Shown: positions 11,254-60,695 of the stretch, piece by piece
Layout of the letters: every line of letters begins with the position of its first letter
Position numbering within the stretch: position 1 is the stretch's first letter
NCBI GenBank assembly: GCA_017461475.1
Contig: JAFTXX010000044.1
Span: 85,263-149,262 of the forward strand
DNA length: 64,000 bases
Direction of reading: 5' to 3'
Origin: Clostridia bacterium
GTDB lineage: Bacteria > Bacillota > Clostridia > Oscillospirales > CAG-272
Program-made: the position numbers and the translations under genes
Notes under the pieces: model-generated
What the model saw: the letters and a program-made list of their open reading frames with translations, nothing else
What the model was told of the DNA's origin: nothing
Databases searched by the model: none

Positions 11254-11270
11254 GTGTTGATTGAGAAGAT

Positions 11271-11514
11271 AAATTGATGTTTATGTTACAAACATCTCCG
11301 CCCGAGATCGCAACGCTGACGCTCAAGGATAACAAGGGCGGGATTTAGCAAAGTGCTAAAAAAGCCTTATTTTGTCGCATTGTAACAACCCCCGCTTGTC
11401 ATCCTCGAACGGAGCACAAGGAACCGAAGGTTCCTGCCATACTCGCAAAGCGAGTATGGGCGGAGTGAAGGATCTCGCGGGGAGATGTTTGCTTATACGC
11501 TAAACATTAATTTA
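11271..11514. repeat. Snap-back dispersed repeat, copy 2
   Basis: It is bounded by AAATTGATGTTTATG and CTAAACATTAATTTA and carries the same internal blocks as copy 1 in the opposite orientation, including the GGAACCGAAGGTTCC and ACTCGCAAAGCGAGT hairpins. Confidence 0.92.
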
Positions 11515-11535: not shown

Positions 11536-11564
11536 TTGACAAGCACCTGCTGAATATGTATAAT
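11536..11564 (+). promoter_or_regulatory. Promoter of tRNA-Ser(GCT)
   Basis: TTGACA (11536-11541), 17-bp spacer, TATAAT (11559-11564); both hexamers are perfect. Confidence 0.92.
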
Positions 11565-11601: not shown

Positions 11602-11691
11602 GCAGAAGTACTCAAGTGGTGAAGAGGCGCCCCTGCTAAGGGTGTAGGTCGGGTAACCGGCGCGAGAGTTCAAATCTCTCCTTCTGCGCCA
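11602..11691 (+). tRNA. tRNA-Ser (anticodon GCT)
   Basis: This 90-nt type II tRNA has acceptor GCAGAAG/CTTCTGC, anticodon loop containing GCT (codons AGC/AGU), a long variable arm (GTAGGTCGGGTAACCGGC region), T arm GAGAGTTCAAATCTCTC, discriminator G and encoded CCA. Confidence 0.95.
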
Positions 11692-11694
11692 AGC

Positions 11695-11724
11695 AAAAAT
11701 ACCGGTCATTAGACCGGTATTTTT
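11695..11724 (+). terminator. Terminator after tRNA-Ser(GCT)
   Basis: The perfect stem ATACCGGTC/GACCGGTAT has flanking A and T runs and starts four bases after the CCA. Confidence 0.9.
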
Positions 11725-11737
11725 GTTTTGTACCGAT

Positions 11738-11834
11738 GGGGAGCACAGAGCAGAATGAACTAAGTTTGCGCAGCAAACTTAATAGGGCTCGCAGAGCGAG
11801 ACCTTGAGTGTCTCAAATCTCTCCTTCTGCGCCA
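11738..11834 (+). ncRNA. tRNA-like element downstream of tRNA-Ser(GCT), copy 1
   Basis: The last 26 nt repeat the 3' end of the preceding tRNA-Ser almost exactly (TCAAATCTCTCCTTCTGC, then GCCA) and the match continues seven bases past CCA. The 5' part starts GGGGAGCACAG and contains two strong hairpins, AAGTTTGC/GCAAACTT and GGGCTCGC/GCGAGACC, where a tRNA would have its anticodon and variable arms. A terminator follows four bases later. A homologous element of 99 nt lies behind tRNA-Ser(GGA) at 60459-60557. It may be a tRNA-derived small RNA, a tRNA pseudogene, or a small mobile element that duplicates tRNA 3' ends. Confidence 0.6.
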
Positions 11835-11837
11835 AGC

Positions 11838-11867
11838 AAAAAGCATCCCCAAACGGGGATGCTTTTT
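11838..11867 (+). terminator. Terminator of the tRNA-like element
   Basis: The stem AAAAAGCATCCCC/GGGGATGCTTTTT with a 4-nt loop directly follows the tRNA-like 3' end. Confidence 0.9.
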
Positions 11868-11909: not shown

Positions 11910-12434
11910 ATGAAAAAAACACAATTCAGTTTGAACAAGTACACTAACCATTCCGGTACGCTGATAAAAAAGTACAAAAATATATTCGGACAATATGTTT
12001 TTGTTTTGCGGGAAAATGATTCAAAGGTATATGTTAACGTCGGCAAGGCTCTGTTTGATTTCTACAACATAAATGACAGAATCACCGTGGGAAAAATCGG
12101 GAGACGGCTGATAAACATACGTCCCGGAGAATATTTTCACAAAAAGCGTATCTCCTCATGCAAAAATTGCAGAAATATTGAATTACGCAAAGCATGGTCT
12201 TCTTCCGACGACTACAGAGAGTTTATTAGCTATCTGAAAGAACTTGTCAACGAGAACAACTTTGAACTAACTGAAGCAACATGCAGTTTCGATAAAATAA
12301 TAAATGCGGACGGCTGGGCAAGCGATATTATCACGCATGTTATCTGTTGCAAAAAATGTGGACAAACTTTCCGCTGTCATGCCGACACTTATCACGGAAT
12401 CGGCGGATTTGATGCAGAAAATCAGGTAAAATGA
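11910..12434 (+). CDS. A+T-rich protein of unknown function with Cys-pair (zinc-ribbon-like) motifs
   Basis: The 174-aa product has an N-terminal beta-rich segment of about residues 15-72 (YVFVLRENDSKVYVNVGKAL, then YNINDRITVGKIGRRLINIRPG), resembling the small barrel domains of DUF7489-like proteins. A first Cys pair is SCKNCRN (about 82-88) and a second is CCKKCGQTF with CHADTYHGIGG near the C terminus, so zinc binding is likely. The gene is visibly more A+T-rich than its neighbours and lies alone between a tRNA-Ser/tRNA-like locus and a dispersed repeat, which suggests horizontal arrival. The ribosome binding site is weak (AAAGAG). I do not recognise the function. Confidence 0.7.
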   Translation: MKKTQFSLNKYTNHSGTLIKKYKNIFGQYVFVLRENDSKVYVNVGKALFDFYNINDRITVGKIGRRLINIRPGEYFHKKRISSCKNCRNIELRKAWSSSDDYREFISYLKELVNENNFELTEATCSFDKIINADGWASDIITHVICCKKCGQTFRCHADTYHGIGGFDAENQVK

Positions 12435-12488: not shown

Positions 12489-12730
12489 AAATTGATGTTT
12501 ATGTTACAAACATCTCCGCCCGAGATCGCAACGCTAACGCTCAAGGATGACAAGGGCGGGATTTAGCAAAGTGCTAAAAAGTCTTGCTATATCGCATTGA
12601 GACAGCCCCCGCTTGTCATCCTCGAACGGAGCACAAGGAACCGAAGGTTCCTGCCATACTCGCAAAGCGAGTATGGGCGGAGTGAAGGATCTTGCGGGGA
12701 GATGTTTGCCCCGCTGCTAAACTTTAATTT
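12489..12730. repeat. Snap-back dispersed repeat, copy 3
   Basis: Same orientation and nearly the same sequence as copy 2, from AAATTGATGTTTATG to TAAACTTTAATTT. The 12435-12809 gap holds this repeat and the promoter of the ABC exporter. Confidence 0.92.
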
Positions 12731-32884: not shown

Positions 32885-33041
32885 GCAATTTGCCAAAGGC
32901 AAATTGCTACCTAAACCTGCCGCTAAAGAGGCAGATTTCACCGACGCTGCGCGTCGATTTCATCCGCCCGCAGGCGGATTTCACAAATCCCGCAGGGATT
33001 TATTTCACTGTAACATTAAGCGGTGAAACCGCTTAATGTTA
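32885..33041. repeat. Modular hairpin array 1
   Basis: A run of at least six short palindromes separated by ATTTCA-type linkers: GCAATTTGCC/GGCAAATTGC, CTGCC/GGCAG, CGACGC/GCGTCG, ATCCGCC/GGCGGAT, AAATCCC/GGGATTT, and a final 13-bp pair TAACATTAAGCGG/CCGCTTAATGTTA. The same style recurs at 60263-60422. It lies between the SGNH gene and recG. Confidence 0.85.
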
Positions 33042-60246: not shown

Positions 60247-60262
60247 GTGTGGGTATTTAATG

Positions 60263-60422
60263 AAATCGTGGCTTTTCCACGATGAAATCTTCGCTATGCT
60301 CAGATAAAATCCAAGTTAAAACTTGGATGAAATTAAATCCACCAATCGCCGCAGCGATTTCATCCGAACGAAGTGAGGATTTCATCTGCGTAGCAGATTT
60401 ATTCCACCGTTAAGGTGGATTT
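60263..60422. repeat. Modular hairpin array 2
   Basis: A run of short palindromes joined by GATTTCATC-like linkers: ATCGTGG/CCACGAT, ATCCAAGTT/AACTTGGAT, AATCGC/GCGATT, AATCTGC/GCAGATT, and TCCACC/GGTGGA. It has the same design as the array at 32885-33041, but the stem sequences are different. It is part of the long 60204-60857 gap, which also holds two terminators, the tRNA-like element and tRNA-Ser. Confidence 0.85.
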
Positions 60423-60427
60423 AGTTG

Positions 60428-60457
60428 AAAAAAGCACCGCTTTTGCGGTGCTTTTTT
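60428..60457 (-). terminator. Terminator of the second tRNA-like element
   Basis: AAAAAAGCACCGC/GCGGTGCTTTTTT with a T4 loop begins directly after the tRNA-like 3' end on the minus strand. Confidence 0.9.
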
Positions 60458-60458
60458 C

Positions 60459-60557
60459 TGGCGGAGAAGGAGAGATTCGAGACTCTCAAGGTCTCGCGGA
60501 GCGAGACCTAATCAGTTTGCTTCGCAAACTGAGCGAGCGTTCTTGCTGTACTCCCCT
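60459..60557 (-). ncRNA. tRNA-like element downstream of tRNA-Ser(GGA), copy 2
   Basis: On the minus strand it starts GGGGAGTACAGCAAGAACGC and ends TCGAATCTCTCCTTCTCC plus GCCA, repeating the 3' end of the adjacent tRNA-Ser. Its internal hairpins are CAGTTTGC/GCAAACTG and AGGTCTCGC/GCGAGACCT, and GGGGAG can pair with the CTTCTCC acceptor strand. Compared with copy 1 the outer pair of the first hairpin changes from A-T to C-G, preserving pairing. Confidence 0.6.
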
Positions 60558-60573
60558 TGCTCAAACAAAATAA

Positions 60574-60601
60574 AACAGCATCCCGAATGGGATGCTGTTT
60601 A
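60574..60601 (-). terminator. Terminator between tRNA-Ser(GGA) and the tRNA-like element
   Basis: AAACAGCATCCC/GGGATGCTGTTT with a 4-nt loop. Confidence 0.9.
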
Positions 60602-60605
60602 ATTT

Positions 60606-60695
60606 GGCGGAGAAGGAGAGATTCGAACTCTCGAACCGTGTTACCGGTTACGCGATTTCCAGTCGCGCGCCCTCGACCAACTAGGCGACTTCTCC
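60606..60695 (-). tRNA. tRNA-Ser (anticodon GGA)
   Basis: This 90-nt type II tRNA has acceptor GGAGAAG/CTTCTCC, anticodon stem CGCGA/TCGCG enclosing CTGGAAA (anticodon GGA), a long variable arm (AACCGGTAACACGGTT), T arm GAGAGTTCGAATCTCTC, discriminator G and encoded CCA. Confidence 0.95.

Follow-up and report, generated by a model that had tools for sequence, protein, structure and literature searches.

Four published sources describe the closest known systems. Genomic islands with a tyrosine integrase that target tRNA genes insert in the gene, restore it and leave a displaced 3' or 5' fragment of it; T-stem and anticodon sublocations are described, and tandem arrays are known (PMC4383910). 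Integrated elements yield partial tRNA copies, which bound a whole island (PMC9897764). Phage Ms6 uses the T-loops of tRNA-Ala genes, where the 7-bp T-loop is a possible strand-exchange site and changes in it redirect integration (PMC1762012). Integron attC sites, 57 to 141 bp long, are imperfect hairpins in which some bases are extrahelical and the terminal structure varies and is at times branched; structure rather than sequence is conserved among them, and they form arrays (PMC5371416).

Here, we report hairpin-bearing units (u1 and u2) behind the two tRNA-Ser genes of a 64,000-nucleotide stretch of a Clostridia bacterium genome (NCBI GenBank assembly GCA_017461475.1, contig JAFTXX010000044.1, positions 85,263 to 149,262 of the forward strand), together with like units behind other tRNAs of the genus and family. 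The whole stretch is called the window, and its genome (76% complete) is called G000. As in tRNA-targeting islands, each unit lies between an intact tRNA and a displaced piece of that same tRNA, and relatives have likely empty sites (three loci); unlike in such islands, no integrase was found inside the units, and those of the window have no gene. They share partial tRNA copies with integrated elements, whose copies, by contrast, bound a whole island (PMC9897764). The T-loop is the target, as it is for Ms6, which differs in being a phage integration with a 26-base attP core, and the available part of that article mentions no hairpin body of this kind (PMC1762012). The predicted imperfect hairpin with extrahelical bases (seen in about half of the folds on visual reading), its variable terminal structure and the arrays recall integron cassettes and their attC sites (PMC5371416), as does one place at a tRNA-Met gene (genome G001) where an open reading frame (ORF) and a terminator precede a unit. 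The units differ from integron cassettes in their base stem, which is a tRNA T-arm, in their tRNA target and in the absence of a gene from the window units. Short, non-autonomous, palindromic repeats of the MITE, REP-BIME and RUP types occur in many copies per genome; to our knowledge, none of them rebuilds a tRNA end. Among the papers that literature searches returned, we recognized none on such units, which does not prove that none exists.

Results

The features of the two loci, with two others of the window, were as follows (window positions; hp1 and hp2 are the two hairpins of a unit, and A' is the arm before them, scored for complementarity to the T-arm of the unit's own tRNA).

11536-11564, plus strand: promoter of tRNA-Ser(GCT), TTGACA-17-TATAAT (promoter scan)
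11602-11691, plus strand: tRNA-Ser(GCT), intact (ARAGORN)
11695-11724, plus strand: first terminator hairpin of u1, insert-borne under the insertion reading (sequence)
11738-11760, plus strand: arm A' of u1, a degenerate inverted copy of the T-arm, score 6 (sequence, by the rule from other units)
11761-11781, plus strand: hp1 of u1, TAAGTTTGC(GCA)GCAAACTTA (hairpin comparison)
11784-11804, plus strand: hp2 of u1, AGGGCTCGC(AGA)GCGAGACCT, type I motif with one G.A mismatch (hp2 pattern, hairpin comparison)
11812, plus strand: extra C in the T-loop of u1 (sequence against tRNA)
11813-11834, plus strand: tRNA tail copied in u1, exact over 22 nt from the T-loop to CCA (tail scan)
11838-11867, plus strand: second terminator hairpin of u1 (sequence)
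11910-12434: 174-amino-acid (aa) ORF behind u1, no Pfam or PADLOC match
32930-33010, minus strand: Gut-1 RNA (RF01706), 55.6 bits
60428-60457, minus strand: probable native terminator of tRNA-Ser(GGA), whose homologue stands directly behind the tRNA in genome G005 (comparison with relatives)
60459-60480, minus strand: tRNA tail copied in u2, exact over 22 nt from the T-loop to CCA (tail scan)
60459-60604, minus strand: extent of u2 when read as an insertion of 146 bp that separates tRNA-Ser(GGA) from its probable native terminator (likely empty site in G005)
60489-60509, minus strand: hp2 of u2, AGGTCTCGC(TCC)GCGAGACCT, type I motif (hp2 pattern, hairpin comparison)
60512-60532, minus strand: hp1 of u2, TCAGTTTGC(GAA)GCAAACTGA (hairpin comparison)
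60533-60556, minus strand: arm A' of u2, degenerate, score 6.5 (sequence)
60573-60600, minus strand: terminator of u2 within the insert (terminator scan)
60605-60695, minus strand: tRNA-Ser(GGA), intact (ARAGORN)

At both loci, the order is tRNA, terminator hairpin, two hairpins, copy of the tRNA's own tail and second terminator hairpin. ARAGORN and the sequence confirmed the intact tRNA-Ser with its terminator, the hairpin unit and the second terminator that a preliminary description of this DNA had reported, and the homologous unit that it placed behind the other tRNA-Ser of the window is u2, behind tRNA-Ser(GGA). Its statement that the unit ends in the same T arm as the tRNA was refuted: in u1 and u2 the T-loop reads GTCTC where the tRNA has GTTC, with one extra C. 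The two strong hairpins that it described are both present, with the correction that hp2 of u1 is not perfect (G.A mismatch).

The promoter of tRNA-Ser(GCT) is perfect and was the sole sense-strand promoter reported near u1, the promoter scan finding none on that strand between the tRNA and the unit. Around u2, the scan gave no minus-strand promoter, a weak negative because it also missed that of tRNA-Ser(GGA) itself. Simple terminator scans reported only the first u2 terminator of the four terminator hairpins; the other stems extend into their T tracts. Neither ARAGORN nor Rfam (at gathering score) detected a tRNA in u1 or u2, no other Rfam family matched them at gathering score, permissive scans returned weak matches below every family's threshold, and neither unit has room for a gene. 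On visual inspection, a riboswitch or attenuator was dismissed; the gene that follows u2 seems to be read from the opposite strand.

Folded alone, u1 exceeded its shuffles in stability only to a moderate degree (z, -1.5), and u2 did better (z, -2.9). The base stem of both is degenerate, being absent in DNA folds and closed as a 6-bp stem in RNA folds. In u1, GGGGAG of A' (11738-11743) can pair with CTCTCC (11819-11824), a pairing present in the RNA fold, where the 5' strand pairs with the T-stem strand and not with the acceptor strand. A DNA similarity search within G000 returned two close copies only, u1 and u2.

Other repeats were seen in the same surroundings. Copies of a repeat (AAATTGATGTTTATGTTACAAACATCTCC...) lie at 11260-11500, before the promoter of tRNA-Ser(GCT), and at 12490-12720, after the 174-aa ORF. 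Short hairpins joined by a repeated linker form star-like arrays at 60262-60430 of the window and at places L093, L109, L116, L051 and L263; the linkers are GATGAAATC, GTGAAAT/ATTTCAC and TATATCATC, inverted in the second half of some arrays, and the arrays often start directly after a terminator, several of them after tRNA genes (GCTTTTTTCAACTAAATCC...).

The phenomenon is far wider than the two window loci. Six genomes of the genus were scanned with the last 26 nt of their tRNAs (350-nt range, other tRNAs masked), and a copy of the own 3' tail was found at most 350 nt downstream of 29 of 189 tRNAs, against 2 of 945 mismatched controls; whole second tRNAs are uncounted because intact second tRNAs were masked. 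The copy started 1 to 4 nt into the T-loop in 26 of the 29 cases, reached the last tRNA base in 22 and lay 115 to 152 nt behind the tRNA in 23. Judged by eye, three matches are due to chance or decay, namely Ser-GGA in G005 (counted in the 26) and in G004 and Pro-GGG in G003; partial remnants stand at Ser-GCT of G001 and Pro-GGG of G003, and at Met of G004 a hairpin array of a different kind separates tRNA and copy. In G000, 5 of 41 tRNAs had copies (units or remnants at Ser-GCT, Ser-GGA, His, Leu-CAG and Pro-GGG), and the hairpin pattern added units or remnants at Arg-ACG and Val-GAC, decayed units that the tail scan missed and the hp2 pattern recovered. Behind the tRNA-Ser genes of relatives, where the preliminary description had proposed to search, the GCT and GGA loci bore units in only two of the six genus genomes; a third had a remnant, and G004 was unreadable at one locus. 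Absences inside the genus are weak evidence because its genomes are 53 to 84% complete.

A mirror class, copies of tRNA 5' halves upstream, was counted at 12 of 189 tRNAs against 3 of 945 controls, a count to which related neighboring tRNAs may add background. The 5' half of tRNA-Asn, tRNA-Ser(CGA) or tRNA-Pro(CGG) forms mirror units at L061, L066, L046, L129, L138 and L142, upstream of an intact tRNA or inside a broken one, some with a type I hairpin near the anticodon loop; L129 holds three tandem 115-bp mirror copies.

Between tRNA and copy, three body types recur. Type I, that of the window units, has a variable hp1 followed by ATCAGGGCTTGCnnnGCAAGACCTTG; in type II, the hairpin after hp1 has a variable loop of some 30 bases; type III reads AAGGGTCGGTAGTGAATGACTGCCGGTGGCAGTCAGAGCC.... 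When 19 type I units were compared, the sequence of hp1 varied by locus with its pairing kept, and hp1 and hp2 often had one purine-purine mismatch each, at the same height. A Ser-specific tRNA mimic was rejected because tRNAs for Trp, Pro, Val, Met and Arg also have type I bodies behind them; the units are not Ser-specific tRNA-like RNAs.

About half of the bodies start with arm A', an inverted copy of the T-arm. For 26 of the 29 copies (Ser-GGA of G004, Ser-GGA of G005 and Met of G004 were omitted by eye as not unit-like), A' was scored against the own T-arm: 14 of 26 units reached a score of at least 9, against 60 of 592 mismatched pairs, and 9 of 26 reached at least 11, against 10 of 592 (median complementarity, 9 versus 5.5). 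The 12 of 26 units below 9 include u1 and u2. DNA folds of 25 units (the same omissions and the second Met of G001 left out; the non-folding Pro-GGG of G003 kept) had a mean z of -3.8. The recurrent fold is a three-way junction, a base stem formed by A' and the displaced T-arm and then two hairpins, and in types I and II the base stem has 1 to 3 bulged bases at the T-loop. On visual reading, about half of the 25 folds have this bulged base stem, and u1 and u2 are without it; they are type I members with a degenerate base stem and have perhaps lost mobility. The sense fold was the more stable in 15 of 25 units and the antisense fold in 9 of 25 (mean z, -3.8 versus -3.5), and because these stabilities are similar, folding separates neither the strands nor DNA from RNA action.

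Likely empty sites were found at three loci, where a homologue of the sequence past the unit in one species directly adjoins the tRNA in another. G000 has the unit and G005 lacks it at Ser-GGA, the reverse holds at Trp, and at Leu-CAG the unit is present in G000 but absent from G003; the comparison covered the sequence next to the tRNA. In G005, GAAAAAAGCAC...GTGCTTTTTTCAACTAAATCCACC stands directly behind tRNA-Ser(GGA), and in G000 the homologous sequence begins past the unit; 60459-60604 would therefore be a 146-bp insert with its own terminator. The flank at the Ser-GGA and Trp sites (GAAAAAAGC..GCTTTTTTCAACTAAATCC or similar) is a repeat that G000 and G005 also have downstream of tRNAs for Gln, Glu and Thr. 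The Leu-CAG site is free of repetitive flank and is the clear case. At seven loci (His of G000, Arg of G001, Gln-CTG of G004, Gln-TTG of G003, Ser-TGA of G001, Trp of G003 and Ser-GGA of G003), the proximal and distal terminators are near-identical, so tandem duplication fits there too and the site is ambiguous.

One tRNA can carry differing types, or none, across species. The body at Leu-CAG is type II in G000 and type III in G001, that at Trp is type II in G001 and type I in G003 and G005, and that at Arg-ACG is type I-like in G000 and type III in G001 and G002. G001 has tandem units at Arg, Met and Thr, G047 has them at Gln, and G145 has them at Leu, where one array mixes two hairpin variants.

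Two further places were recorded. Behind tRNA-Ser(TGA) of G005 (L219), the unit's tail does not match the tail of its tRNA (TCGAATCCCACACTCTCCACCA), and the sequence after it resembles that downstream of tRNA-Met of G003, which suggests an exchange at the unit. Behind tRNA-Arg(ACG) of G001 (L333), the A' of a type III unit is closer to a tRNA-Ala tail than to that of tRNA-Arg, which suggests a move between tRNAs.

Outside the genus, 15 of 389 further family genomes matched the type I tail pattern (at most 2 mismatches); no match lay near a tRNA in the fetched stretch, and the 8 that were inspected resemble coding sequence. In a collection of 84,980 species, from which records of the window's own genome were possibly left out, this pattern matched only a goat-caecum Clostridia metagenome-assembled genome (RGIG1718), whose two units have the same sequence as those of G003. 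Of 395 genomes, 5 had the type I hairpin pattern, namely four of the genus and G057, where it belongs to an unrelated repeat. Among 146 family genomes (a sample that omits G001 and G004, genus members with type III), 4 had type III, and these belong to three other genera; its sites are behind tRNA-Gln of G047, tRNA-Leu of G145 and an orphan T-arm of G107. In the fourth, G120, the type III hairpin lies away from tRNAs, at five places (L338, L342, L344, L345 and L346) with no tRNA in the fetched stretch.

The tail scan of six genomes from five other genera, covering tRNAs on fetched stretches, found copies at 11 of 101 tRNAs against 0 of 505 controls (G107, 5 of 14; G008, 2 of 19; G047, 2 of 20; G145, 2 of 20; G045, 0 of 18; G012, 0 of 10), where a type III match had been the ground for including G047, G107 (98% complete) and G145, and where the 11 include a weak Cys match in G047 that is probably due to chance and, in G107, the interrupted second tRNA-Thr. 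At the latter place (L352, tRNA-Thr GGT), a nearly whole second tRNA-Thr stands behind the first, broken near the anticodon by a hairpin-rich insert. Pattern scans of IMG/VR returned no match, 14 coding-like matches without a tRNA in the fetched stretch, and one type III unit, which adjoins a prophage-like end; phage or plasmid records gave no match for the one type III query tried. With that single type III unit as the yield, a phage origin of the unit was rejected.

No recombinase tied to the units was found. There were 26 PF00589 integrase matches in six genomes, several beside tRNAs and none shown to be part of a unit. The 7 of these 26 that were scanned (genus genomes, 53 to 84% complete) all fell far below the TIGR02249 integron-integrase cut-off; none of these 7 is an integron integrase. 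A small armless tyrosine recombinase, present in 5 of 12 genomes tested, was rejected as the engine because its presence does not track the units: it is missing from G107 and G145, which have them, and present in G012, where they stand at 0 of 10 tRNAs.

Genes accompany units at two places. Behind tRNA-Met of G001 there are two tandem units, a 199-aa ORF (no Pfam match), a terminator hairpin, a third unit and then a barstar-domain protein; in G003, a unit with a tRNA-Met tail lies behind matches to Pycsar effector and cyclase models, on a contig other than that of the tRNA. At both places, either cargo-bearing cassettes or separate insertions could account for this. Just upstream of a unit, G003:C7 and viral contig L337 each have a prophage- or island-like end (an integrase and an intact orphan T-arm), and the unit is separable from the integrase element because that element ends in its own orphan T-arm.

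Discussion

Comparison of the sequences supports the view that insertion at the T-loop has recurred and has regenerated the tRNA end each time. The insertion element rebuilding tRNA 3' ends that the preliminary description had offered as one option is right in outline and is supported by the likely empty sites, the three bodies at many tRNAs and the exact copies; its argument that two loci of the same order speak against chance decay was right, repeated insertion being the better reason. By analogy with tRNA islands and T-loop phages, we infer that site-specific recombination is at work. We see an even chance that the units are miniature insertion cassettes at tRNA T-loops, with folded single-stranded DNA and a tyrosine recombinase in trans as the likely mechanism.

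Such a cassette, about 134 to 172 bp from tRNA end to copy end (some in tandem, a few perhaps with cargo genes), would insert at the T-loop, and the copy would bring or regenerate the T-loop-to-CCA segment and usually a terminator. Because the copy supplies these, the tRNA would stay intact and its displaced 3' end would come to lie downstream. The body would fold as single-stranded DNA into the three-way junction, whose base stem (A' and the displaced T-arm, bulged at the T-loop) would mimic a double-stranded T-arm, and a tyrosine recombinase supplied in trans would join the folded body to the tRNA T-loop, much as IntI acts with a folded attC. Action on a folded single strand is proposed because attC sites are recognized by extrahelical bases and a variable terminal structure (PMC5371416); the term "attC-like" would denote resemblance, not identity.

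A route without any recombinase is possible, if on balance unlikely: slippage or template switching at tRNA terminators would duplicate the 3' end with its terminator and add palindromes, and unequal crossing-over would expand the product. The near-identical terminators and tandem copies at several loci fit it, as do the inverted copy A' and a lineage that looks rich in short hairpins, with hairpin arrays at several of the places read. It accounts poorly for three bodies common to unrelated tRNAs and species (types II and III also to genera), for likely empty sites where the terminator of the insert differs from the one behind it, and for a copy start fixed in the T-loop. It is improbable that the units are the right ends of tRNA-targeting phages or islands that lost their middle by deletion. 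Both share the T-loop target and the tRNA-restoring logic, integrases with orphan T-arms lie beside some units (G003:C7 and L337), and cargo genes occur at two places; however, the unit is separable from the integrase element in both of those cases, and deletions would hardly leave like bodies at many tRNAs with 23 of 29 copies at 115 to 152 nt.

We regard as highly improbable the tRNA-derived small RNA of the preliminary description, that is, a putative tRNA-like RNA made by terminator read-through and serving as a Ser-tRNA mimic or decoy. SerRS ignores the anticodon, u2 can be modeled as a five-arm cloverleaf, and the pairing of hp1 and hp2 is kept despite sequence change between units. Against such an RNA stand the lack of a reported promoter between tRNA and unit, the broken T-loop, the missing anticodon, the pairing of the u1 5' strand with the T-stem strand, the patchy presence at the GCT and GGA loci of the genus, the type I bodies behind five other kinds of tRNA and the absence of an Rfam match at gathering score. 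That the units are decayed tandem duplicates of tRNA genes is scarcely credible: the T-loop-to-CCA end is copied, partial remnants exist (Ser-GCT of G001 and Pro-GGG of G003) and the copy at tRNA-Thr(GGT) of G107 is a nearly whole interrupted second tRNA, but pseudogenes would not explain the T-loop start in 26 of 29 copies or the replacement of the missing part by recurring structured bodies.

Under the insertion-cassette reading, Islander-type searches may have missed a class of miniature tRNA-linked inserts, because the Islander search skips candidates below 2 kb or without an integrase (PMC4383910). The units may also break assemblies at tRNA 3' ends; contig C44 of G003 ends at the end of tRNA-Pro(TGG), and units with a Pro(TGG) tail stand on two other contigs. 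It is a doubtful, rather unlikely extension that they form a second integron-like capture system on tRNA T-arms, with putative single-strand cassettes, a recombinase in trans, arrays and defense or immunity cargo, in several genera of one Clostridia family. If the units do move as folded DNA, the attC principle would operate outside integrons, and this would explain the stacking of genes behind essential tRNAs.
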